From Deltaproteobacteria bacterium (GTDB taxonomy: Bacteria; Desulfobacterota; GWC2-55-46; UBA9637), in the NCBI GenBank assembly GCA_016234985.1, contig JACRNK010000095.1, positions 1-12,430 of the forward strand: 12,430 nt of DNA. Reading direction: 5' to 3'. Under the pieces are notes generated by a model. The model ran no database searches and was not told the origin of the DNA. It saw only the letters and a program-made list of their open reading frames with translations. Each line of letters starts with the position of its first letter. Within the stretch, counting starts at the first letter, position 1. Below, piece after piece: positions 1,054 through 12,430 of the stretch. A program made the position numbers and the translations under genes.

Positions 1054-3126
1054 GTGTATCAAAATATTCTCATGTACGGGGGAAAAGGGGTTCTGGCAAT
1101 AGAGGGCTGGGCAGACCGTATATTCACCCCGCGGTATAATCCTTTTTATTACCTTGGGGCAATAGCCATATTTTTCCTTTGGCTGCTTTTGATAAGCGGT
1201 ATATATCTTTTTCTTTTTTACGAGATCGGCGCCCCTTATAAATCAATCCAATATATTACAGAAGAGCAGTGGTATCTCGGCGGCATTATGAGAAGCATCC
1301 ACCGTTATGCCGCAGACGGCATGGTTATCGCTTCAATACTGCATCTTGCTCAAGTGTATCTTACGGACAGATACCGGCGCTGGCGGTGGGTTGCATGGGT
1401 TTCAGGCATTGTCCTGCTTGGCGCCGTGTGGGTAACAGGGATTGTGGGTTACTGGATGGTCTGGGACCAGAGGGCTCAGATGATAGCTGAATTAACAGCC
1501 GGCTTTCTGGATTACATGCCGATATTCGGCGATTCGCTTTCCATGTCATTTACAAGCAATACCCTTATTACAAACCTCTTTTTCTTTGTGGCGCTTTTTG
1601 TGCATATTATGGTGCCTGTTCTCCTTTTCATTGCCCTCTGGATTCATGTTGTCCGGATATCCAAGCCTGTTATCAATCCGCCTAAGATAATTGCAGCGAT
1701 TCTCATATGTGTCATTCTGGCTCTTTCTCTTATAAAACCTGCAACAAGCCTGCTGGCGGCGGACGCAGACAGGTTTATCTCTATAATAGGTCTGGATTGG
1801 TTTTACCTCTTTCCGTATCCGATGCTTAATGCATTGCCGGCATGGGCTTCCTGGGCGGTCGCGGCAAGCGCAACAATAATCATTACCATGCTTCCGTGGC
1901 TTGTAAGGGCAAAGCAGCTTGCGACAGCGGAGATTGTCAAAGATAAATGCACAGGATGCTCGCAGTGTTTTGAGGACTGCCCTTACGAGGCCATACACAT
2001 GATGCCGAGGACAGATGGCAAACCCTACGACCTTGAAGCCATCGTCATATCAAAAAGGTGCGCAAGCTGCGGCATATGCGTGGGCTCGTGCAGTTTTAAT
2101 GCCGTCAATTTCCCTGACAAGACCGAAACGGATATTCTGAATGAAATCAAAGGCGCGCTGGCAGCGGTTAAAAACAGCGACGAGCCTGTCATTTTGGGGC
2201 TGGTATGTTCATACAGCATAGACCTTGCTAAAATTATTGACCCTGCAGCCGCTGCTGTCAAAGGCATGCCCAATGTAAAACTTATAACCCTTCCATGCGC
2301 AGGCATGATTCAGCCTTCATGGATTGAGGCTGCCTTAAATGCAGGCGCAGACGGCGTATTCATATGCGGCTGTCAAACGCGCGACTGCCACTTCAGGCTT
2401 GGAAATAAATGGCTTGAAGAGCGGCTAACCGGTCAGAGGCTCCCCATATTAAGGCAAACTATAGATAGGTCTCTGCTCAGGGTCTATTGGCATTCTGCAT
2501 TGCAGACAGTGGATTTATTGGCTGAGGTTAAGGCATTTCAGGAGGATATTAAAGCCAAAAGGCGGAAAAATTATATGCCGGAGCAGGTTCGCATGAAAAA
2601 AAGCCGCCTTGCAATTTCATCAATTGCGCTGTCAATCCCTGCGGCGCTTGTCTTTTATTTCTCGGATGCGAGATATATGTTTTTAAATCCTAATGATTCA
2701 GCGCTGAAATTAAGCATTAAACATGCAGGGAAGAGATTGGTTGAATGCGACGAAGCTGCCATGCTGGCAGAAGAGGCAAAGAAATACAGCAAGCAATTGA
2801 GAGAAACCGGCATGGCGCAAATGGATGTTACAACAGTTGGGAGTTGCAGCAGGGAAAGGCATCCGGTCTATCTGGAACTCTCTATAGATAACAAGAAAGA
2901 GGTGATGAAAAGCTATCAGCCGGGAGGATGGAAAAAGGACGGCGCATCATTTGTATATGAGAAATTTATCCTCAAGCCCGGCAGCCACAGCCTGCTTATA
3001 AAAATGAGGGATGGCAAAAATGGCGAGCGGTTTGATTATGTTTTTGAAGGCAGTATTGAATCCAAGTCCGGACAGATAATGGCTATAGATTTTGACGAAC
3101 GCAGCAAAAGGTTTCTCATCAGATAA
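1054..3126 (+). CDS. Cytochrome b / 2x[4Fe-4S] ferredoxin / MvhD-like fusion protein
   Basis: This 690-residue membrane redox protein starts with GTG, preceded by AAGGAGA at good spacing. Residues 1-285 form a bc-type cytochrome b with six helices. Heme ligands are H83/H97 and H184/H198, both 14 apart. In the loop before helix F, LDWF (247-250) occupies the place of the Qo-site PEWY motif. Residues 295-355 hold two complete ferredoxin clusters (C299, C302, C305, C309 and C336, C339, C342, C346). Residues 378-465 resemble the MvhD/FlpD hydrogenase delta subunit (C385, C415, C438, C440, C445), but the first Cys of its usual CxxC is Gly382. A helix at about 517-536 then leads to a beta-rich tail (540-690). 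Positive-inside topology puts the iron-sulfur part in the cytoplasm and the tail in the periplasm. It probably moves electrons between quinones and a cytoplasmic partner such as an Hdr-like enzyme. No partner gene is adjacent. Confidence 0.85.
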   Translation: MYQNILMYGGKGVLAIEGWADRIFTPRYNPFYYLGAIAIFFLWLLLISGIYLFLFYEIGAPYKSIQYITEEQWYLGGIMRSIHRYAADGMVIASILHLAQVYLTDRYRRWRWVAWVSGIVLLGAVWVTGIVGYWMVWDQRAQMIAELTAGFLDYMPIFGDSLSMSFTSNTLITNLFFFVALFVHIMVPVLLFIALWIHVVRISKPVINPPKIIAAILICVILALSLIKPATSLLAADADRFISIIGLDWFYLFPYPMLNALPAWASWAVAASATIIITMLPWLVRAKQLATAEIVKDKCTGCSQCFEDCPYEAIHMMPRTDGKPYDLEAIVISKRCASCGICVGSCSFNAVNFPDKTETDILNEIKGALAAVKNSDEPVILGLVCSYSIDLAKIIDPAAAAVKGMPNVKLITLPCAGMIQPSWIEAALNAGADGVFICGCQTRDCHFRLGNKWLEERLTGQRLPILRQTIDRSLLRVYWHSALQTVDLLAEVKAFQEDIKAKRRKNYMPEQVRMKKSRLAISSIALSIPAALVFYFSDARYMFLNPNDSALKLSIKHAGKRLVECDEAAMLAEEAKKYSKQLRETGMAQMDVTTVGSCSRERHPVYLELSIDNKKEVMKSYQPGGWKKDGASFVYEKFILKPGSHSLLIKMRDGKNGERFDYVFEGSIESKSGQIMAIDFDERSKRFLIR

Positions 3127-4214: not shown

Positions 4215-4652
4215 TTAGCAGCAATGCTTCTCATATATCGGATATATCACTTTTTCCTCGCTTGCAACCCTCTTCAGGATATCTTCATAGAACATTTGGA
4301 AATCGTAATGAAACTCTGTCATCTGCCCCGCTATTTCATCTTTATGCGAATATTTAGTGAAAAAGTCAAAAATCCTGTTTTCCATTCCCTTCATTGCGCC
4401 GGAAAATGCGCTGACGGTCAGTTCCGCCAGTTTTATATCCTTATCCTTGACTGCATTGAGCAGTTCTCCATATATCTTATCTCCTTCTTTTTTAAAATGG
4501 GCAAGAAGGCTTTCTTTGAGCACATCCAGATGAATGGATATATCTTGGATATTCCTTGTTTGAATAAAACCTTTAATCTCTTCCAAACGTCGGCCTATTG
4601 TCCTATGCTCGCTTTTTAGCTCGACGAGGTAATTTGTATTGACCGCATCCAT
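4215..4652 (-). CDS. Hemerythrin-like four-helix domain protein
   Basis: The product is 145 residues and all-helical, with hemerythrin/HHE-type spacing: H16 in SEHRTIG, the HxxxE pair H52/E56 in LAHFKKEGDKIY, H115 in EFHYDFQMFY, and EE at 132-133 before VIYPIYEKH. In the usual HxxxEE of the last helix the His position holds Arg128, so one canonical di-iron ligand seems absent, although H103 or H143 might compensate. It could be a modified oxygen/NO/iron sensor or an Rsd-like binding protein with the same fold. A purine-rich AAGGGGG lies about eight bases ahead of the ATG. It is downstream of, and probably cotranscribed with, the receiver-domain gene. It ends CC, unusual but of unknown meaning. 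Confidence 0.6.
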   Translation of the reverse strand: MDAVNTNYLVELKSEHRTIGRRLEEIKGFIQTRNIQDISIHLDVLKESLLAHFKKEGDKIYGELLNAVKDKDIKLAELTVSAFSGAMKGMENRIFDFFTKYSHKDEIAGQMTEFHYDFQMFYEDILKRVASEEKVIYPIYEKHCC

Positions 4653-4700: not shown

Positions 4701-4808
4701 AATCTTTATGCAATCCGCGCTCCCTTCTTTTTTCAAGTGTTATCAAATTGATCAAAGTGGAAGCGAAGCAAATCTTTATGCAATCCGTAGCCCCTTCTTT
4801 TTTCCAAG
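4701..4808. repeat. Pair of direct repeats spanning the 3' end of the receiver gene
   Basis: Bases 4701-4737 and 4771-4808 are near-identical copies 70 bases apart, with the first 17 bases identical (AATCTTTATGCAATCCG). They then differ at four adjacent positions and one indel. On the minus strand both encode EKRR..GLHKD in phase with the repeat, but 70 is not a multiple of three, so the second copy is out of frame with the receiver gene. Confidence 0.75.
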
Positions 4809-5161
4809 AGAGCCTTAATCTTTAATAAGAGTTCCTTGAGCTCTACAGGTCTTGTTACACAGGCGTCTGCTTCAAGCTCTAATTCCTTAAATCTCTCTGC
4901 GTGCATATCCTGGCTGGCAAGGATAATTATCCGGCGATCCGCTTTATGCTCTTTTATATATCTGCAGATCATCAGGCAATCCGCCTCTTTAATATTTGCG
5001 TCAAGAATGACAACCTCAGGGTTAAACTCCTTTAACTTCGGGAATACATGAATGCCGTCCCATGAGCAGGCTGTGTTATAACCATTCCCTGTCAGGTGAT
5101 AATCTAAAAAGCAGAGTATTGTCCAGTTAGCCGCAGCAATTAAAATCTTTTTTCTTTTCAT
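4733..5161 (-). CDS. Atypical response-regulator receiver domain protein
   Basis: The product is 142 residues and a stand-alone CheY-like receiver. The strand KKILIAA starts it, and EVVILDANI holds the phosphoacceptor-like D54. Ser83 replaces or equals the conserved Thr/Ser, and CVTRP has Arg104 where Lys is standard. The two acidic residues that bind Mg after strand 1 are missing (A10-A11-N12), so normal phosphorylation is doubtful and D54 may act in another way. No output domain follows. AGGAG lies six bases before the ATG. The tail LLRFHFDQFDNT comes after the first copy of a direct repeat and may be a secondary C-terminus. The neighbours are the large regulator upstream and the hemerythrin-like gene downstream. 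Confidence 0.8.
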   Translation of the reverse strand: MKRKKILIAAANWTILCFLDYHLTGNGYNTACSWDGIHVFPKLKEFNPEVVILDANIKEADCLMICRYIKEHKADRRIIILASQDMHAERFKELELEADACVTRPVELKELLLKIKALLEKRRGYGLHKDLLRFHFDQFDNT

Positions 5162-5191
5162 GGCATCTCCTGTTGCTTTTTAAAACTGAAC

Positions 5192-5226
5192 ATTTTTAAC
5201 ACGGCGAAGGTAACAAATCGGTAACA
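5192..5226 (-). promoter_or_regulatory. Candidate SARP-type activator box and -10 of the receiver gene
   Basis: On the minus strand TGTTACC occurs at 5226-5220 and again at 5215-5209, an exact heptamer direct repeat with an 11-base period (one helical turn). Eight to nine bases later comes TTAAAAAT (5199-5192), a possible -10. No normally spaced -35 is visible. This matches the known layout of SARP and OmpR-type activator sites. The adjacent upstream gene encodes a regulator with exactly this class of DNA-binding domain, so regulation by it is a reasonable inference. Confidence 0.4.
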
Positions 5227-5264
5227 GATGAAAAGTTTTTTTGGATTGCAGATTTTAGGGAGAG

Positions 5265-5289
5265 ATAAAAATATTTCCCCGGTAGGGGG
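5265..5289 (-). terminator. Weak possible terminator after the STAND regulator
   Basis: On the minus strand CCCC-TACC-GGGG (5288-5277) is followed by AAATATTTTTATC, an interrupted T-rich stretch. The stem is only four G-C pairs, so strength is uncertain. A larger pairing with the GTAGGGG repeat beside it could compete. Confidence 0.3.
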
Positions 5290-5331
5290 CTTGTCCCTTC
5301 CCTCAGCGGGCAGGTTTAAACCCGCCCCTAC
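5282..5331. repeat. REP-like palindromic element carrying the regulator's stop codon
   Basis: The ends are GTAGGGGG (5282-5289) and CCCCTAC (5325-5331), a terminal inverted repeat. Inside lies GGGCAGG-TTTAAA-CCCGCCC (5308-5327), a second hairpin with one G-T pair. The format, GTAGG at one end and CCTAC at the other around GC-rich hairpins, resembles the separate element at 11260-11311. The TAG stop of the large regulator gene lies within the element's last bases. Confidence 0.55.
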
Positions 5332-8126
5332 TTTTTCGCCAACGCATCCACCCAGACCATGCGCGGATTCAGGGACACCATGCCGCCGTTCATTTCTATG
5401 CACCGGTCACAGAGCAGTTTGCGCAGGCGGGACAAGGTCATCTTGAAGTTATTGTGCGCCATATCGCCGTCAACATCAGGCCAGAGCTTGTCCGCTATTT
5501 TTTCCACAGGCACATCCTCACCGCCGAATGCAATAATCGCCTTGAGCATCTCCAGCGGTTTTTTCTGAACCTTTCCTGAAAACTCTACAGGCTTGCCGTC
5601 TATCCATATCTCGAATTTTCCGAGGGTGTAAATCTTGACGGGATAAGGCCAGTTTTCCAAATGTGGTGCGGATTGATGCGGCGTCAGCTTTCTCTTGCGG
5701 ATAAGCATTTTGACATATTCCGTCTCAACCCCATGCTCCAGAGCCTTTGCGCAAAGCTCTGACATAGCCGCGGGCTGCCACCACATGAAATGCAGATAAC
5801 CCCGTTTCCTTCCTATGACCATCGCGTGTTTGAGCGATTTTATGCCTGCTTTTTCATTTCCGGCATAAAAAGAAAACCGGGCTTCAGCCAGCATACAGGA
5901 AAATTTTAAGATATCGCTGTTCATTTGTCCGGCGGTCTTGCAGGCCTTTTCCAGATACGTTCCGGCAAGATTGAGCTCGCTTTGCATGAACATGATCTCT
6001 ACCATACCGAGATGCCATATTGCCTCATGGTAGCTGAGAGACAGCCTCTTTACAGCAGAGGAGGCTGTTTCCATGTGGCTTAAGGCGAGAGGGAGGTTGC
6101 TTGTAATCATCGCATGCCATGCCGAAAGCTCGTGGAAATAAATAATATCAAGCGATTTTGCTCCCTTCATAGAGGCTGCCGCCTGTTGAAGCATTGTTTT
6201 CGCTGCCGCTGTATCGCCTGCTGCCATAGCCCCTTCTATGCCGTAGTTAAGCAGCATGTTGTCCCATACATGCACGCCGTTTTTTTCGCCTGTCTGCAAT
6301 CCTTCATGTACGGCTTTTTTGCAGCTTTCCGGCTGAACGGTAAGCCAGCAGTGCAGAGCCTCAAGCAGCTTTATGGTGATTATGAGAAGGGGAGAGGTAT
6401 TAGAAGAAGCAATCTCTTTCCTCAGCTCTTCAATCAAAATCCCGTTTTTTTGAAAATCGCCTGTCCATACATTATGAACGGCTGTATAAAAGCCTGTGTT
6501 TACCCGAAGGCTTATGTCGCTGCTCTCCTTTGCAATCGCCCATGCCCGCTCCGCCCATCTATATGTCTCAGGCCGCCCTGTCTGCCAGAGAACCAGAGAG
6601 ACAAACATGCTGAAAGTTACTCTGGCCTCTATTTCCTTTGAAGGAAATGACGGATACTGCTTCATAAGCTCATTCAATATGGGTATCCAATGTTCAAGGG
6701 GAGTCAGGTTCTCTCTTTCGTAGGGGAAGGTGTTTACAATGCTGCACCAGGTCAGAAACAATCCCGCCGCATCCTTTTGCCGCTTAAACAGACCGAATGC
6801 CTGTTCGGAATATGAGCGGCTTTCTTCCTGATTAAACGGCAGACGGCAGACGCCGAGCCAATAGAGAAGCCACGGGGCGCTGCTCAACAGGTCTTTTGGA
6901 AGGTTCATTATCCATTCCTCAATGACTTTGTATCTTCCCTGCATTGAAAGAAATTTGGCGTGCTTCAGGACGAGATTGACAAGCCCGTCCCAGTCTCCGG
7001 CGTCTTTGAATAACTCAAAGGCGTCTTCATGCTTTTCAGACTCAGACAGGATTTGCGCTGCCTTTATCTGCAAGTCCTTCTTTTCAGGCTGAGTGAGTAA
7101 ATCTTTTATTCTGGACAGGAGAAACTCGCGGAAAAGCGGATGATACTGATATGTTGGGTTTAAAAGATTGCGTTTTTCGGTAAAACAGTTTCCGCGGCTC
7201 ATGTCCGATAGAAGTTGCCCGGCATTGTTTAATCCTGTCAACCTTTCAGCCGTTGAGGAATCTATGCTCGGCAATATTGATGTTTTGAGGAGAAACCCTT
7301 TTGCGCCGTCATCAAGTTTTTTTAATATTTCCGAATCAAAATAATCAAAGACCGTATCCATGGTAATATTTTTTATTGAGACAGCAGCGTCAATTTTTCC
7401 TTTTCTAATCGGCTCAAGCATAAGATGCACGCCCGCTGCCCATCCGTTTGTCTTGCGGTAAATCTCATCGCATGCCTCTTCCGAGTATTTCCCCATGATG
7501 CCGTAAAGCCGCATTATGCCCAAGGTCTCGTCAGGAGTCAGATAAAGTTTCTCCTGATCCAATATTTCCATCAGATTATTTGCCCTCAGCCGCGCGAATG
7601 CGGGAGGCGGCGTATTTCTGCTCAAAAATACAATACTTACGCCCTCCGGGAGCATCTCAAGACTGCCAAGGATTATCTCGTGGAGTTGTGAGTTGACAGA
7701 CGCCTCGTGATAATCATCAAATACAAGACAGGCTGGGCGCTTTAATCTGCCGTAAACCTCTTCAAAATATCGGCGTGTAAAAGCAGAGACGCCTTGTCTG
7801 TATTCAGGGGTTAAGCACGGCATGGGCTTTTTCTTGAGAGGCGCCGCCTTTTTAACGGCAAGGCCCATGTAATAGAAAAAAGTGGCTATATCATCATCGC
7901 CGCTGTCTACCGAATACCACAAACAGGGCAGGTTGCGCGCATGAAGATAGCTTGACAGCAATGTGGTCTTGCCTGAACCGGCCGACGCCGATAGATAGAG
8001 GACAGAATGGCGGCTGCGGCTCTTGTCTAAAACGGCAAAGAGCCTCTTTCGTGTTAAGATTTTAAAGTATAGCGGACGGGTTATTTTAGCAAAAGAAGAG
8101 AGAAGCTGCTTCACAGATTGTCCCAT
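5328..8126 (-). CDS. MalT-like STAND ATPase transcriptional regulator with SARP/OmpR-type DNA-binding domain
   Basis: The product is 932 residues. The N-terminal ATPase has Walker A SASAGSGKTTLL (46-57, K53, T54) and a Walker B with the MalT-type VFDDYH (135-140, D137/D138). A winged-helix/arm region follows to about 340. Helical TPR-like repeats, probably ligand sensing, fill about 340-780. A C-terminal winged helix of the Trans_reg_C/SARP type (about 827-925) includes TLGKFEIWIDGKPVEF and SRLRKLL. Such proteins bind ATP and an inducer, oligomerise and activate transcription. Relatives usually continue after the VWVD stretch into a BTAD domain. This one stops seven residues past VWV, at a stop inside a palindromic repeat, so it may be truncated. 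The ATG has no clear ribosome binding site. It starts 24 bases after the SCO stop and so may be the last gene of the oxidase operon. Confidence 0.88.
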   Translation of the reverse strand: MGQSVKQLLSSFAKITRPLYFKILTRKRLFAVLDKSRSRHSVLYLSASAGSGKTTLLSSYLHARNLPCLWYSVDSGDDDIATFFYYMGLAVKKAAPLKKKPMPCLTPEYRQGVSAFTRRYFEEVYGRLKRPACLVFDDYHEASVNSQLHEIILGSLEMLPEGVSIVFLSRNTPPPAFARLRANNLMEILDQEKLYLTPDETLGIMRLYGIMGKYSEEACDEIYRKTNGWAAGVHLMLEPIRKGKIDAAVSIKNITMDTVFDYFDSEILKKLDDGAKGFLLKTSILPSIDSSTAERLTGLNNAGQLLSDMSRGNCFTEKRNLLNPTYQYHPLFREFLLSRIKDLLTQPEKKDLQIKAAQILSESEKHEDAFELFKDAGDWDGLVNLVLKHAKFLSMQGRYKVIEEWIMNLPKDLLSSAPWLLYWLGVCRLPFNQEESRSYSEQAFGLFKRQKDAAGLFLTWCSIVNTFPYERENLTPLEHWIPILNELMKQYPSFPSKEIEARVTFSMFVSLVLWQTGRPETYRWAERAWAIAKESSDISLRVNTGFYTAVHNVWTGDFQKNGILIEELRKEIASSNTSPLLIITIKLLEALHCWLTVQPESCKKAVHEGLQTGEKNGVHVWDNMLLNYGIEGAMAAGDTAAAKTMLQQAAASMKGAKSLDIIYFHELSAWHAMITSNLPLALSHMETASSAVKRLSLSYHEAIWHLGMVEIMFMQSELNLAGTYLEKACKTAGQMNSDILKFSCMLAEARFSFYAGNEKAGIKSLKHAMVIGRKRGYLHFMWWQPAAMSELCAKALEHGVETEYVKMLIRKRKLTPHQSAPHLENWPYPVKIYTLGKFEIWIDGKPVEFSGKVQKKPLEMLKAIIAFGGEDVPVEKIADKLWPDVDGDMAHNNFKMTLSRLRKLLCDRCIEMNGGMVSLNPRMVWVDALAKK

Positions 8127-8150: not shown

Positions 8151-8996
8151 TTACAGGCATATATGCCCTGACCGTTTTACGAAGAACGATTTTATGTCAC
8201 TTCCCCAAACAAAAAAGATTGCTGAAAAAATGACTATTGCCTCAAGCATGGTTCCTATTAAGAACGGATAATCAAGTTTATACTGCCCTGTCTTTTCATC
8301 ATACTTGTAACAGAAAAGCACTATCCTGTCTATAATGCCCCTGTCTGCATGGCCGGAAGATTTGGCGTAATACGGCTTTCCTGCCTCTGCCTGATAAACC
8401 GGCGACAGTATCTCCTCCGGCTTAAAATCAATGCCATAGACATGCCCGTATATCATGCCGTTTGCATCAATAATGCTTACCACATTCAGATGGTCAAATC
8501 CGCCGTCTGTTTTCTTATAATAGAACCCAATATCCTTTGCTAATTTTTCAATTGTTTCTTTATCTGCGGCGGCAAACTTCCAGTTCTTAAAATTATCCGT
8601 AAAATTTCCTCCATATTCTCTCATCCTCTGGGGTGTATCGCTCTCAGCATCAAATCCGATGGTTATTGCATTAAATTTTGAGCCGAAATCCTTGCCAGCC
8701 TCTTTAACGGCATTTTTAAAATTCATTGTTATGGCTGGGCAGATGTGGCCGCACTTTGTGTATATAAGGCTTATTATGAATGGCTTGCCTGAAGCAAACT
8801 CCTTAAGCTTGAATCTCTTGCCATCCTGATCTATGAAGGAATAGTCGCCTATCGCTTTTCCAATGGCATTGTTTGATAGATTGAAGGCTGCTTGCTCTTC
8901 TTGCGGGGATAGAGAGGCGTGGGATTGTAAGCAGTAAGCAGTAAGCAGTAAGCAGAAGAGCAGGGTAAATAAGAAAGTTTTTTGAAAAGTATTCAT
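8151..8996 (-). CDS. SCO1/SenC/PrrC-family copper chaperone
   Basis: The product is 281 residues. A signal peptide or N-terminal anchor (1-27) leads into a thioredoxin-like domain. The copper-binding CxxxC is C82/C86 in YTKCGHICP, and the third ligand is H169 in FDHLNVVSIID. A C-terminal membrane helix (about 250-268) ends in a basic tail, an arrangement seen in several bacterial SCO proteins. SCO proteins deliver copper to, or reduce, the CuA centre of cytochrome oxidase, acting on the outer face of the membrane. I chose the ATG at 8996, which gives a proper signal peptide and lies 16 bases after ctaB. A TTG at 9026 would overlap ctaB. No strong ribosome binding site is seen. Four heptamer copies encode part of the signal peptide. 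Confidence 0.88.
   Translation of the reverse strand: MNTFQKTFLFTLLFCLLLTAYCLQSHASLSPQEEQAAFNLSNNAIGKAIGDYSFIDQDGKRFKLKEFASGKPFIISLIYTKCGHICPAITMNFKNAVKEAGKDFGSKFNAITIGFDAESDTPQRMREYGGNFTDNFKNWKFAAADKETIEKLAKDIGFYYKKTDGGFDHLNVVSIIDANGMIYGHVYGIDFKPEEILSPVYQAEAGKPYYAKSSGHADRGIIDRIVLFCYKYDEKTGQYKLDYPFLIGTMLEAIVIFSAIFFVWGSDIKSFFVKRSGHICL
8927..8954. repeat. Four tandem heptamers (GTAAGCA)x4 in the SCO signal peptide
   Basis: GTAAGCA repeats four times without a mismatch. On the coding strand it reads TGCTTAC, which in any frame cycles Cys-Leu-Leu-Leu-Thr-Ala-Tyr, so every phase is open and hydrophobic. Loss or gain of one unit would shift the downstream frame. Confidence 0.9.
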
Positions 8997-9012
8997 ACTA
9001 TTTGCAGGCAAA

Positions 9013-9765
9013 CTACCTAATGGCAATATCTATAATAACAGCCAAAAACAGCGCTCCAAGATAGACCATGGATGCCTTAAAGTTTTTATATGCAATCTCT
9101 TTTGTAGTGCTTTTTATAAGCTGGATGTTTCTGATGATAAAGAATTTGGAATCTCCTATTACAACAGGGAGCATGGGAATGCCTGCCTTTGCGTATTCCT
9201 CTTTATGGACTATGGCAAAACTCCAGAAATGGGACGGCGTCCAGAAAAACATTGTTATAGCCAGCAGGACAGGCAGCATACAAAGTTCCGGGGCGGCAGA
9301 CGCCCCTCCGGCAAGCACGGCGAAACTGCCGGCCAATCCTCCTATTATTATGTTTAGCCAACTCTTTCTCTTAAGCCATGCAGTATAAATTACCGCATAT
9401 ACCAAAGCCCCAAGAAACAGGTGCAGGCTTACCATGTAATTAAGGGCATTAAATGAGACAAGGATGGCGGCGATAAAAAGAACGGCTGCTATGAGCAGGG
9501 TCTTTTTTGAGCTATCTATGCTGCCTGAAGGTATGGGTCTTTTTTGCGTCCGTTTCATGACTGCGTCTATGTCCATGTCAAAATAGTGGTTAAAGGCGCT
9601 TGCGCTTGCAGAGGCCGTCATTGTGGCAATAATTAAAAAGAGAATGTTCGTTATTGAGATATTTGCCGACGCTGTGGAGATTAGCCCGACAACGGCGCTG
9701 AATGTAATCAGCGAGCATATCCTGATTTTAAAGAGAGGAAGATAATCTTTTAGAGCTGTCTGCAT
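9013..9765 (-). CDS. ctaB: Protoheme IX farnesyltransferase (heme O synthase), short form
   Basis: The product is 250 residues of the UbiA prenyltransferase family, converting heme B to heme O in the membrane for heme-copper oxidases. The prenyl-diphosphate/Mg site is N59-x3-D63-x3-D67, followed by KRTQKRPIPSG. SHFWSFAI and YAKAGIPMLPVV are typical CtaB/CyoE stretches. The usual family length is about 280-300. Here PVVIG (to 204) is followed by only about 22 residues before the C-terminal NFKASMVYLGALF, where CyoE has about 70. About two membrane helices therefore appear deleted in frame. AAGGAG seven bases before the ATG supports the start. It lies 14 bases downstream of the oxidase paralog and 16 upstream of SCO, clearly one operon. 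Confidence 0.87.
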   Translation of the reverse strand: MQTALKDYLPLFKIRICSLITFSAVVGLISTASANISITNILFLIIATMTASASASAFNHYFDMDIDAVMKRTQKRPIPSGSIDSSKKTLLIAAVLFIAAILVSFNALNYMVSLHLFLGALVYAVIYTAWLKRKSWLNIIIGGLAGSFAVLAGGASAAPELCMLPVLLAITMFFWTPSHFWSFAIVHKEEYAKAGIPMLPVVIGDSKFFIIRNIQLIKSTTKEIAYKNFKASMVYLGALFLAVIIDIAIR

Positions 9766-9779
9766 AAAATTTCTCCTTT

Positions 9780-11249
9780 TTAGCTATTGGATTCGGTTCC
9801 TATATTTCCAACATCAACAAGTTGAAGGATTTTCTTTGGCCCTGCAAGAGACAAGATAGAATTTACAACAAATATAATGCCGCCTGTAATGGCTATAAGT
9901 CCGCCGACGCCTACGACGACCATGCCTATAATTTTTGTAATATCATCAAGGTTCTGGGCGGCGCCGAAGGTCTTTCGCTGCACGCCGTGCGAGCCTGCCA
10001 GAAACATTCCTATGACAAAAAGCGTCTGCCCTGCGCCGTAAATATACGGCTGAACCCTTGCCAATCTTAAACTGTAAATATCCCTCTTCAGGAGATAAAG
10101 AATATGATTTGTAAGTCCCATGAATGCAAGCGTAACCCCCCCTATCACCCCGTGATAATGCGACGGGATCTTTGTGTTGGAGCCGTGTATCATCAAGGCT
10201 ATAAAACCGCCGAATGCAAAAACCGCCATTGATATGACCAGTGATGAAAACAAGGGGTCATTCCATGGAAGTTTGCCATTGTCTTTTGAATCCTCCCCCT
10301 GTCCCCCTCCAGAGGGGGATAGGGGGAGGATAGCAAATAAAACAGTTATTGCAAAAATCCCTGTAGACGGCCCGAGGCCGTATTGCATAAGTGATGTAAA
10401 TGCATCTTTATATTGCTGGCTTGCAGTATCATAAATAAAATAGATGAACGGGGCAGGCAGTATGAAGAGGAGATAAATTACATAAAGAACCTTTGCATAA
10501 CTCTCTTTTATGGGAAATTTTTTAAATATAACACTGGATAGAAAGAGCCATGCAGTAACCATTGCGATAGTATTCGCAAATTGTAGTATGTGTCCGCCTC
10601 CCCAGAAAAGCGTTTCAAAATCCAATAATATCTTGGCGGATGGCGCCAACGTTTGAAAATAGTAAGAAAGCGCAAAGCATATTATCGCAGTTAAAACGGC
10701 TATGCCTGATATAAGCATGCCGAATGTCAATAAGGGAAAACGGCCTGTATATGTCTTCTCCTTCCGCGCCTTCCACACTGTCAAAAATGTATTTATCAAA
10801 GTAATAAAAATACCGGCAGCCAGGACAATAAGCGCCATGTAGAATACCGGGTGGGTCAGCACAGGCACATAGTTTATAAATAGAGGAATGCCGAGGGCAA
10901 AGAGCGCGGCAATTATTACAAGCAACGTGCCGCTTACAGAAAGCCAGAAGCCCAGCCATGAGAGAGACATGCTAAAAGGTTTTGCATTTAAAAATTTAGT
11001 TGTTGAAAGCGTCCACAAAACACCCTGAAATGCCAGAAACCATATTACGACAGACAAAATAACATGCCCCACAAGGGCGACACGGATGTAATCATGTGTC
11101 GGGAAAATATTCTGGATGCCGGGAGTCCGGGACATGGCCACAAGGAATGCGAATATGCCTGCAAAAATAAGCGACGATACGGCAAAGGAGAGCCATGCAT
11201 AAACAAGTTTTTCGCTATCCCTGTCAAGTTTTTGATTGATAAAATCCAT
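9780..11249 (-). CDS. Heme-copper oxidase subunit I-like paralog lacking the His-His copper pair
   Basis: The product is 489 residues with about 12 membrane helices. Heme and copper landmarks of subunit I are partly present: H52/H62 in the helix II region, H220 in FWGGGHILQ (helix VI copper His position), and the H-x-H pair H364/H366 in PSHYHGVIGGVTLAFMG. LPWNDPLF and GVQRKTFG align with the B-type oxidase next door. Where that protein has EHHILVDP, this one has LPAPFIYFIYD, so the two helix VII copper ligands are missing. It may carry hemes but no CuB, acting as an electron-transfer or structural partner rather than an oxygen-reducing subunit. A 40-base palindrome adds a Gly/Pro/Ser-rich loop (about 308-321). 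The ATG lacks a ribosome binding site. A REPIN-like repeat lies just upstream. Confidence 0.75.
   Translation of the reverse strand: MDFINQKLDRDSEKLVYAWLSFAVSSLIFAGIFAFLVAMSRTPGIQNIFPTHDYIRVALVGHVILSVVIWFLAFQGVLWTLSTTKFLNAKPFSMSLSWLGFWLSVSGTLLVIIAALFALGIPLFINYVPVLTHPVFYMALIVLAAGIFITLINTFLTVWKARKEKTYTGRFPLLTFGMLISGIAVLTAIICFALSYYFQTLAPSAKILLDFETLFWGGGHILQFANTIAMVTAWLFLSSVIFKKFPIKESYAKVLYVIYLLFILPAPFIYFIYDTASQQYKDAFTSLMQYGLGPSTGIFAITVLFAILPLSPSGGGQGEDSKDNGKLPWNDPLFSSLVISMAVFAFGGFIALMIHGSNTKIPSHYHGVIGGVTLAFMGLTNHILYLLKRDIYSLRLARVQPYIYGAGQTLFVIGMFLAGSHGVQRKTFGAAQNLDDITKIIGMVVVGVGGLIAITGGIIFVVNSILSLAGPKKILQLVDVGNIGTESNS
10291..10330. repeat. 40-base palindrome inside a coding sequence
   Basis: Bases 10291-10310 (TCCTCCCCCTGTCCCCCTCC) and 10311-10330 are inverted copies, matching at 18 of 20 positions. 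The palindrome lies in frame in the oxidase paralog and encodes a low-complexity loop, LPLSPSGGGQGED, between predicted membrane helices. It is strongly biased to C on one strand and G on the other, unlike the surrounding gene. Confidence 0.85.
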
Positions 11250-11253
11250 AAAA

Positions 11254-11315
11254 ATGAGCGGTAGGAGCCATCTCCTGATGGCGATTATCGCCGACAGAGT
11301 CGGCTCCTACCTCAT
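11254..11315. repeat. REPIN-like palindromic doublet
   Basis: Outer arms GTAGGAGCC (11261-11269) and GGCTCCTAC (11302-11310) are perfect inverted copies, extended by ATGAG (11254-11258) and CTCAT (11311-11315) with a two-base bulge. Each half holds its own hairpin: CCATC-TCCT-GATGG (11268-11281) and GCCGAC-AGA-GTCGGC (11290-11304). The centre GCGATTATCGC is also a dyad. This inverted pair of GTAGGAG-type hairpins is the layout of REP doublets (REPINs) known from other bacteria. Confidence 0.85.
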
Positions 11316-11334
11316 CGCCTCTTGCCTGTATTTG

Positions 11335-11366
11335 CCCCGTTAGAAAAACGTGACTTTCTAACGGGG
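11335..11366. terminator. Strong hairpin, possible intra-operon terminator or processing site
   Basis: CCCCGTTAGAAA (11335-11346) and TTTCTAACGGGG (11355-11366) form a perfect 12-base stem with the loop AACGTGAC. It starts two bases after the stop of the subunit IIa-like gene and lies ahead of the oxidase paralog. Neither flank has a long T-run, so it may be a partial terminator, an mRNA-stabilising end or another repeat family. Confidence 0.55.
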
Positions 11367-11367
11367 T

Positions 11368-11496
11368 TTACCTAAGCTCCCACAAACTTGCTAAATATTT
11401 GTAATTTAAAAAGTAGATTATAATAAATGTAGCCAGGAATATGATGGCAATGGCAAATGTGCCAGGCGCCCCAAATCCTTCATTGTTGTCTGACAT
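11368..11496 (-). CDS. Small subunit IIa-like membrane peptide of a B-type oxidase
   Basis: This 42-residue open frame begins ATG at 11496 with AAGGAGGG about eight bases upstream. It reads MSDNNEGFGAPGTFAIAI, then a single membrane helix (about 14-30) rich in Ile/Phe/Leu, and ends in a short basic-aromatic tail (NYKYLASLWELR). Ba3-type oxidases carry a tiny one-helix subunit IIa, often with a Pro/Gly-Thr just before the helix. Size, topology, motif and location 23 bases after a B-type subunit I gene all fit. It would pack against subunit I in the membrane. The assignment is structural; the sequence is too short to be certain. Confidence 0.7.
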   Translation of the reverse strand: MSDNNEGFGAPGTFAIAIIFLATFIIIYFLNYKYLASLWELR

Positions 11497-11519
11497 GATT
11501 TTAACCCTCCTTATTTAAG

Positions 11520-12430
11520 TTATGCAAGCTTTTTTCCAAAAAATATGGTCAGCACTGTAACCAGAACATATATAGCGCCGCCAAGGATCGCTAAAAGGGC
11601 GCCGATGCCAAATACGCCGAGCCACATATAGACAGTCGGATCCCATGCAAAGGCGAACGGGGAGCCGCCGAAGTTTACTATGTCCCAGTGCCTTCTCGGG
11701 ACGCCGTAAGCGCCTGCGAGCATCATGCCGCCTGAGGTTAACAGCATACCGATGCCAAAGAGCCATGGTTGAAGTTTGGCAAACCCCATGCCAAGCACCT
11801 CTCTCCTGAATATAAGAGGCAGCACATAATAGGTTACACCCATAAATGCAAGTGTTGTCCCAAAGACAACAGTTCCGTGGAAGTGGCCTGTAATTCTCCA
11901 TGTGTTATGCGCTGTGATATTTACCTGCTCTGACCCAAATATAACGCCTGTTATGCCGCCCAGAAAGCCGAAGCCAAATATGGACAGCATAAGGGCTGAG
12001 AATGCCGGGTTTGACCACGGCGCTTTTTTAAGCCATTCAAAAAGACCGCTTGTGAACCCCTTCTTTCTCAAGGCAACCTCTATGCCCGCAGGCACTGCAA
12101 GGGCATGTATCATGCTGGCAAGAACAGCCAGATGCATGACATAGCCTGTATTCCATATCTTGTGGGCATTGCTGAATACCGGGTCAACCAGTATATGATG
12201 CTCGGACGCCACATTTATAAACAACACATAAAGCACAAAGGCTGTCCTGCAAAGCTTCTGGTTGATTGGCTTCATTCCAACTGTCAAAGTGCCGAGCAGA
12301 TACCAGACAGATATCATTGCAGCAACATTTATCTGCTGTGATGGGTGGCCGAGCCCCCACCATACAAGCCTGTATGTTGACTCATCCATGCCAATCAAAC
12401 CCAATGACCACAAAAGGGCTGGGACATAGA
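11520..12430 (-). CDS. B-type heme-copper oxidoreductase subunit I (C-terminal part), Tyr replaced by Gln
   Basis: The frame is open to the window edge, and about 302 residues are visible. It resembles ba3-type subunit I in several stretches: GLFEWLKKAPWSNPAF, AHNTWRITGHFHG, GVPRRHW. Copper/active-site His are present: WWGLGHPSQQ (helix VI), EHHILVDP (helix VII, with the B-type HHxxxDP), and H-F-H for the heme pair. In B-type oxygen reductases the helix VI motif is GHPxxY, with the Tyr cross-linked to His. Here that position is Gln. Loss of this Tyr is typical of nitric oxide reductase-like members of the superfamily, so substrate O2 versus NO is open. It is first of the visible oxidase operon; subunit II would be expected just outside the window. 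Confidence 0.85.
   Translation of the reverse strand, partial: YVPALLWSLGLIGMDESTYRLVWWGLGHPSQQINVAAMISVWYLLGTLTVGMKPINQKLCRTAFVLYVLFINVASEHHILVDPVFSNAHKIWNTGYVMHLAVLASMIHALAVPAGIEVALRKKGFTSGLFEWLKKAPWSNPAFSALMLSIFGFGFLGGITGVIFGSEQVNITAHNTWRITGHFHGTVVFGTTLAFMGVTYYVLPLIFRREVLGMGFAKLQPWLFGIGMLLTSGGMMLAGAYGVPRRHWDIVNFGGSPFAFAWDPTVYMWLGVFGIGALLAILGGAIYVLVTVLTIFFGKKLA

Follow-up and report, generated by a model that had tools for sequence, protein, structure and literature searches.

Heme-copper enzymes of the ba3-a1 type are described in the text of PMC6431628 as being without the catalytic tyrosine of subunit I and as having an SCO gene in the operon. According to the text of PMC8879329, the ba3-a1 enzyme was found to be an NO reductase with reduced cytochrome c as the donor and was renamed eNOR. 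A glutamine at the position of the cross-linked tyrosine is the criterion for eNOR in the available part of PMC8756737. eNOR has been reported to reduce NO and is thus a source of the greenhouse gas N2O.

The window, i.e. the whole stretch of DNA analysed here, comprises 12,430 nucleotides of contig JACRNK010000095.1 from a Deltaproteobacteria bacterium and contains a gene in which cytochrome b, ferredoxin and MvhD domains are fused. We consider it moderately probable that this fusion is a dedicated, Rieske-free membrane electron-transfer partner of CuA-type heme-copper reductases, here of an eNOR-type NO reductase, an enzyme little studied so far. No description of the fusion as an eNOR partner was found in the literature searched, a collection that lacked most subscription papers. 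A comparative eNOR study from 2024 may mention it.

The fusion gene and its neighbours in the window

The fusion gene is genuine and complete. An uninterrupted reading frame from a GTG start at 1054 to a stop at 3124-3126 encodes a membrane protein of 690 residues with sites for two hemes and three iron-sulfur clusters. The single intact frame agrees with an earlier, sequence-only reading of the window, in which the protein was described as an electron wire encoded by a gene standing alone. The following features were identified:

1054..3126, plus strand: fusion gene, 690 aa, cytochrome b / 2x[4Fe-4S] ferredoxin / MvhD / TM helix / periplasmic beta domain
1129..1671, plus strand: cytochrome b N-terminal domain, residues 26-206, with heme His 83, 97, 184 and 198
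1684..1902, plus strand: helices E-F and Qo-like LDWF loop, residues 211-283 (helices in the model 211-227 and 263-283)
1921..2109, plus strand: ferredoxin domain, residues 290-352, with Cys 299, 302, 305, 309, 336, 339, 342 and 346
2182..2556, plus strand: MvhD/FlpD domain, residues 377-501; C385, C415, C440 and C445 kept, S388 in place of the second CxxC Cys
2599..3123, plus strand: TM7 and predicted periplasmic beta tail, residues 516-690, with Cys565 and Cys598; the tail is a separate gene in many relatives
4215..4652, minus strand: hemerythrin-domain protein (PF01814)
8151..9026, minus strand: SCO1/SenC copper chaperone (PF02630)
9013..9765, minus strand: ctaB heme-o synthase (TIGR01473, 217.9 bits, cut-off 210.3)
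9780..11249, minus strand: heme-copper subunit I paralogue without the CuB His-His pair (PF00115)
11520..12428, minus strand: eNOR-type heme-copper subunit I (HPSQQ), truncated by the contig end

The anatomy of the fusion is supported by both sequence and model. Cytochrome_B (residues 26-203), Fer4_7 (298-350) and FlpD/MvhD (380-500; PF02662, 71.5 bits against a cut-off of 22.3) all matched above cut-off in a domain search of the kind suggested in the earlier reading. A lack of the cytochrome b fold or of heme pairing, given there as grounds for rejection, is not what is seen; as in bc-type cytochrome b, the fold is present together with two bis-His heme pairs at a spacing of 14 residues. The PEWY motif of bc-type cytochrome b is absent and LDWF is found in its place (residues 247-250), in agreement with that reading. 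PF00032 gave weak matches (20.7-21 bits) to the helix E-F region of sister fusions. Solved MvhD chains have the motif CCNWC and the fusion has VCSYS, i.e. C385 is kept and the second cysteine of the CxxC motif is serine (C385-S-Y-S388). The motif has accordingly lost a cysteine, as had been claimed, although it is the second and not the first; the remaining conserved cysteines are kept. The predicted structure (pLDDT 87.6, pTM 0.84) contains the anticipated extra helix, in two pieces (516-536), and beta-rich tail, and the predicted topology places the cluster-bearing domains on the cytoplasmic side. A fold search of the tail gave no confident fold, and no Pfam family was found for the two stand-alone tails scanned; seven stand-alone tail relatives were present in the protein search. 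Fusion proteins at present bear database names such as 'hydrogenase iron-sulfur subunit' or 'cytochrome b N-terminal domain-containing protein'.

A protein search with the fusion resulted in 673 matches, of which the best 120 were aligned with the window ORF in 121 rows (the window protein stands twice, as P0001 and P0002). In this alignment of the best 120 of 673 and the window ORF, the four heme histidines (H83, H97, H184, H198) were found in 120 of 121 rows, the remaining row having a gap, and the eight ferredoxin cysteines in all 121, which bears out the sites named in the sequence-only reading. D248 and C385 were likewise present in all 121 rows, W249, C415 and C440 in 119 and C445 in 118. 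Within the best 120 of 339 Chloroflexi-type matches, the Qo-like motif kept the aspartate and had the tryptophan replaced in all 120 rows. The cytochrome b and FlpD Pfam entries both occurred on at least 117 of the best 120 of 673 matches, the other three (P0025, P0033, P0082) being short; an assembly fusion, considered in the same reading, is therefore unlikely. The tail is either fused to the protein or encoded by a separate gene immediately behind, and its two cysteines were invariant in 27 of 27 aligned tails. Broken fusion genes, spread over two or three frames and being pseudogenes or the result of sequencing errors, were seen at loci L007, L043 (= L098) and L044 (= L101).

The wire-like anatomy thus stands, but the setting had been misjudged: the gene does not stand alone and is tied to a CuA-type heme-copper NO reductase (eNOR). 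SCO1, heme-o synthase and two heme-copper subunit I genes are located at 8151-12428, with SCO1 on the strand opposite to the fusion and about 5 kb away. As the reading stated, no Rieske gene was recognised among the scanned genes of the window, nor was a cytochrome c1 gene. In the subunit I gene cut by the contig end, the motif reads HPSQQ: the fourth residue after the His is Gln, in oxygen reductases Tyr, and the protein was assigned to the eNOR type because of this replacement of the catalytic Tyr. The neighbouring subunit I paralogue (9780-11249) has kept three heme-ligand histidines and one CuB histidine. Paralogues of this CuB-less kind occur in many eNOR-bearing loci, and the CuB His-His pair was absent in 24 of 24 rows (duplicates kept), mostly being I/V/L followed by Y. 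Compared with the L007 copy, the window ctaB lacks 38 internal residues; a frameshift was ruled out, the alignment of the two showing an in-frame gap. The minus-strand region 4733-8126, between the fusion and the SCO1/eNOR genes, encodes a response regulator and a 932-residue ORF with weak AAA and MalT-type matches below cut-off. In the loci of 22 relatives a hemerythrin gene comes after the fusion or the tail gene; a profile of these hemerythrins did not match the one in the window, whose membership in the cluster is therefore only suggested. In the genome of the window organism (G000), PF02662 was found in the two fusions and, on another contig, in a third ORF (L003) with Cys motifs like those of ferredoxins. 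Three places with an eNOR-type subunit I, one of them cut, were observed in this genome (contigs C15, C64 and C76), and the organism may run several eNOR-type enzymes.

Association of the fusion with eNOR genes

Gene order was studied in 80 loci, found through the fusion itself; the count excludes ten duplicate regions as well as the loci L001-L003 and L052-L081, which are short. Subunit I was located within 10 kb of the fusion in 59 of the 80 loci, the Tyr-type L046 included. In 17 of the other 21, the sequence on one side is shorter than 4.5 kb; the four to which this does not apply are L011, L044, L048 and L109. Gammaproteobacteria and Alphaproteobacteria repeatedly show the commonest order, CuA subunit / eNOR I / ctaB / SCO1 / fusion / tail. 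A shorter version that lacks ctaB predominates in another family of the class to which the window belongs. The genes are arranged differently in the window's own family and, still close together, in records from archaea and Chloroflexi. An SCO gene precedes the fusion on the same strand in 51 of the 80 loci, its end being less than 700 bp away; the window differs in this respect. A gene resembling heme-a synthase was found near fusion loci (25 bits against a cut-off of 550). Nitrogen-oxide genes were also present. One neighbour cluster comprises six loci, and cd1 nitrite reductase (nirS) was found in all four that were scanned (L014, L022, L026, L035); L023 has nnrS and napA.

Gln replaced Tyr in 47 of 48 readable subunit I rows, the one Tyr being in an Anaerolineae record; seven further rows were partial and duplicates were kept. 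All 40 distinct subunit II sequences of 260 aa or less carry the CuA ligand motif; these are from relatives, as the window contig ends in subunit I. Among solved structures, 7deg and the ba3-type oxidases were the nearest to the L010 subunit I. A Haloarcula heme-copper gene was dropped as an eNOR candidate on account of its HPVVY motif. Of 72,556 plasmid records, one alone carried the fusion (search at E 1e-20). The Defluviimonas plasmid NZ_CP156080.1, given as complete, holds the operon described above, followed by a hemerythrin gene. Gln-type, eNOR-like genes on Thermus and Thermomicrobium plasmids have no fusion nearby on those plasmids, and the fusion is therefore not universally needed by eNOR.

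Further genes were observed around these clusters. A protein of 136 residues that matches no more than the end of COX1 (PF00115) recurs near these clusters, at 17360-17770 in L007 and 17318-17728 in L111, and its gene is followed by a small gene of cupin-like appearance. In L064, L082, L117 and their kin, mainly in one family of the window's class, the tail gene has a further gene of some 730 residues behind it, and the start of this gene matches the Tll0287-like PF11845 in L064. The eNOR/fusion operon of L092 and L110 is directly adjoined by a further COX1-type gene (478 aa; scanned in the L092 copy) and a second gene for a cupredoxin-like subunit, at 12090-14061 and 14264-16235, respectively.

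Co-occurrence was studied by searching two taxonomic samples with profiles of the fusion and of subunit I, namely a phylum (297 genomes) and the order of a gammaproteobacterium (53 genomes), each picked because its centre carries the fusion. In the phylum sample, at a 500-bit line set after the scores were seen, the fusion was found in 11 genomes and subunit I in nine, all nine being among the 11. One contig carried both genes in six of the nine; in G020, G117 and G135 they are on separate contigs. Weaker heme-copper matches, of 150 and 190 bits, came from G002 and G151, the two fusion genomes in which no full subunit I was found. Heme-copper matches of 223-237 bits, a range in which Tyr-type oxidases score with a related profile, were obtained from the fusion-free genomes G202, G271 and G312. 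In the order sample, subunit I was present in 15 genomes and the fusion (E 1e-30 or better) in 16, i.e. the same 15 and a partial match in G383; the two genes were 887-1917 bp apart in all 15. Across both samples, the fusion was observed in 24 of 24 genomes with subunit I above 500 bits, and subunit I at that score in none of the 323 fusion-free genomes. Fisher values were 1.3e-15 and 2.6e-12, with relatedness and the choice of centre ignored. The association of the fusion with eNOR is near certain.

Proposed electron route and competing explanations

As a donor to the reductase, the fusion would pass electrons from the MvhD [2Fe-2S] cluster through the two [4Fe-4S] clusters in the cytoplasm to heme bn, heme bp and the periplasmic side, a chain that follows naturally from the anatomy. 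From this outer face they could be handed to a cytochrome c or straight to the CuA site of subunit II, which would feed the reduction of NO to N2O. Quinone exchange in the cytochrome b part is to be expected, we infer, because direct transfer from NADH to CuA would cost membrane potential. The fusion would thereby act like a complex III without the Rieske protein and cytochrome c1, and MvhD would provide an extra cytoplasmic socket that soluble dehydrogenases, for instance a NuoF-like protein, could use. Maturation of the reductase would be the task of SCO1 and the heme synthases encoded nearby.

Candidates for both ends of this route were found in relatives. Two genomes (G006, G007) encode a NuoF-like protein of 437 residues between two fusion genes, downstream of the CuA subunit and subunit I; in L111 its gene is 5 and 12 nt from the two fusion genes. 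The protein matches PF01512, PF10531 and PF10589, and gave 463 bits with the NCBIfam model nuoF_fam, below the cut-off of 558.65. The linkage is limited to these two related genomes, no match (E 1e-5) being found in other genomes among loci L001-L121 and the window. A cytoplasmic partner, as proposed in the sequence-only reading, receives some support from this subunit, but HdrA was found neither among the scanned genes of the window nor in the annotated Defluviimonas operon. At the other end, seven of the best 120 of 339 Chloroflexi-type relatives carry a C-terminal cytochrome c beyond the tail, and these seven have no other tail cysteine. Of the other 113 listed among the best 120 of 339, 70 are without tail cysteines and 36 have two. 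Twenty-six Chloroflexi loci comprised eight with a cytochrome c fusion; subunit I was Tyr-type in 12, Gln-type in seven and neither in seven. All seven cytochrome c fusions whose contig reaches far enough adjoin a Tyr-type subunit I. The module thus occurs next to heme-copper members of O2 and of NO type, and some copies have a periplasmic heme site of their own. The NuoF-like protein may mark the entry and the C-terminal cytochrome c the exit of the electrons. The final transfer to CuA is hypothetical, since a scan of the last quarter of the window protein and its 119 closest listed relatives gave no C-terminal CxxCH (0 of 120). A CxxCH in an Anaerolineae fusion was a false lead, being CTGCH inside the ferredoxin.

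The fusion as a general replacement for a missing bc complex was rejected. Several fusion genomes hold both Rieske and the cytochrome b C-terminal domain (PF00032), and given this co-occurrence the fusion cannot just be a substitute for a bc complex that was lost. Such replacement is possible in G117 (95% complete, with no Rieske or PF00032 match), G135, G151 and the archaeal G346 and G347, for both of which no completeness is given. NrfD-type proteins were found in nine of nine genomes tested, two of these being repeats, which leaves room for alternative complex III.

The main rival to a role as electron donor is that of an assembly factor, a transmembrane reductase sending cytoplasmic electrons to the periplasm in order to reduce Cu(II) or the cysteines of SCO1 and CuA, a function putatively fulfilled for other heme-copper oxidases by CcoG or CrpH. 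We regard this as unlikely, although several observations fit it. The TM / ferredoxin / TM / periplasmic beta domain layout of the fusion resembles that of CcoG. SCO is the steadiest close neighbour, its gene being placed immediately before the fusion, with the same orientation, in 51 of 80 loci, heme-o synthase and the heme-a-synthase-like gene are nearby, the tail cysteines are invariant in all 27 aligned tails, and the closest relatives have no periplasmic redox centre. An NADH input would suit such a reductase equally well, and heme-bearing and other membrane metal reductases that support heme-copper enzymes are discussed in the available part of PMC13038864. Against this, the cytochrome c at the end of some Chloroflexi relatives would be needless for copper reduction, and the seven tails ending in it among the best 120 of 339 carry no other cysteine. 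The presence of two hemes, of three cluster sites and of a Qo-like loop that is conserved would be in keeping with a sustained flux. FixG/CcoG-type families were absent from the 14 Pfam matches of the window scan, though NCBIfam models of NapH type match the ferredoxin part below cut-off, and the fold search of the tail gave no confident match. Some relatives, a minority in either case, have a cytochrome c at one end or an NADH-type flavoprotein at the other, and electron transfer is therefore likelier than a copper-reductase role. The two cysteines in 36 of 113 listed Chloroflexi tails weigh very slightly against the electron-donor role, as does the scope of the HdrA scan, which covered the window and the Defluviimonas operon.

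Electrons could also flow inward, from quinol to a low-potential acceptor in the cytoplasm, the adjacency to eNOR then reflecting shared regulation or bifurcation. MvhD- and NuoF-like domains handle low-potential pairs in known systems, and the predicted cytoplasmic position of the cluster-bearing domains and the Qo-like D248-W249 are compatible with this direction. The cytochrome c fusions point outward instead, and a low-potential enzyme was not recognised beside the fusion in the window or the Defluviimonas operon; inward flow was judged quite improbable. Ranked lower again, and doubtful, is a bifurcating quinol oxidase module without Rieske. Here the two electrons of a quinol in the Qo-like pocket would part: one would leave outward for cytochrome c or CuA and finally NO or O2, and its partner would travel inward by way of heme bp, heme bn, the two [4Fe-4S] clusters and MvhD and end on a NuoF-like protein that reduces NAD+. 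If true, NO respiration would directly drive reverse electron flow. A chance neighbourhood or assembly artefact is hardly credible: the window contig does end inside subunit I and some relatives have split copies, but both domains are present in at least 117 of the 120 listed relatives and the linkage recurs in two genome samples and on a plasmid labelled complete.

The electron-donor role, if true, would add a further route from quinone or NADH to heme-copper reductases beside bc complexes and alternative complex III. The fusion is also a marker gene for finding eNOR operons.

Comparison with known systems

The cytochrome b of bc1/b6f complexes and the fusion have the fold, the four heme histidines and helices E-F with a Qo-type loop in common. 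The fusion differs in having DW(F) instead of PEWY and in the attached cytoplasmic Fe-S domains, and the Rieske protein and cytochrome c1/f encoded with cytochrome b in those complexes were absent from the scanned genes of the window. Residues 279-501 match positions 560-770 of the 777 of HdrA2, i.e. its C-terminal ferredoxin and MvhD part. In contrast to HdrA2, the flavin-site part is missing, cytochrome b is placed in front instead and the second CxxC cysteine is Ser; the HdrA2 model gave 126.6 bits on the whole fusion protein against a cut-off of 1100, so that the protein is no full-length HdrA. The best named cytochrome b model was ExtP, a b-type cytochrome of selenite/tellurite reduction operons (NF040969). 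Its 100.3 bits are far under the cut-off of 290, and the model, with 205 positions, is without Fe-S or MvhD domains. The putative copper reductases CcoG/FixG and CrpH are also membrane redox proteins serving heme-copper enzymes, as described in the available part of PMC13038864; the fusion has no FixG-type domain among its Pfam matches.

A protein with related domains, RME88945.1, is listed in the appendix table of PMC8756737 with PRK03735 cytochrome b6, DMSOR_beta-like and FlpD. The table is taken to give domains sharing an ORF with the cytochrome C1 domain, and in that row neither a function nor a link to eNOR is drawn. The available parts of the text of the eNOR (ba3-a1) papers PMC6431628 and PMC8879329 make no mention of a cytochrome b fusion. 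With the eNOR (ba3-a1) operons described in the text of PMC6431628, the fusion loci share the missing tyrosine of subunit I and the SCO gene of the operon.
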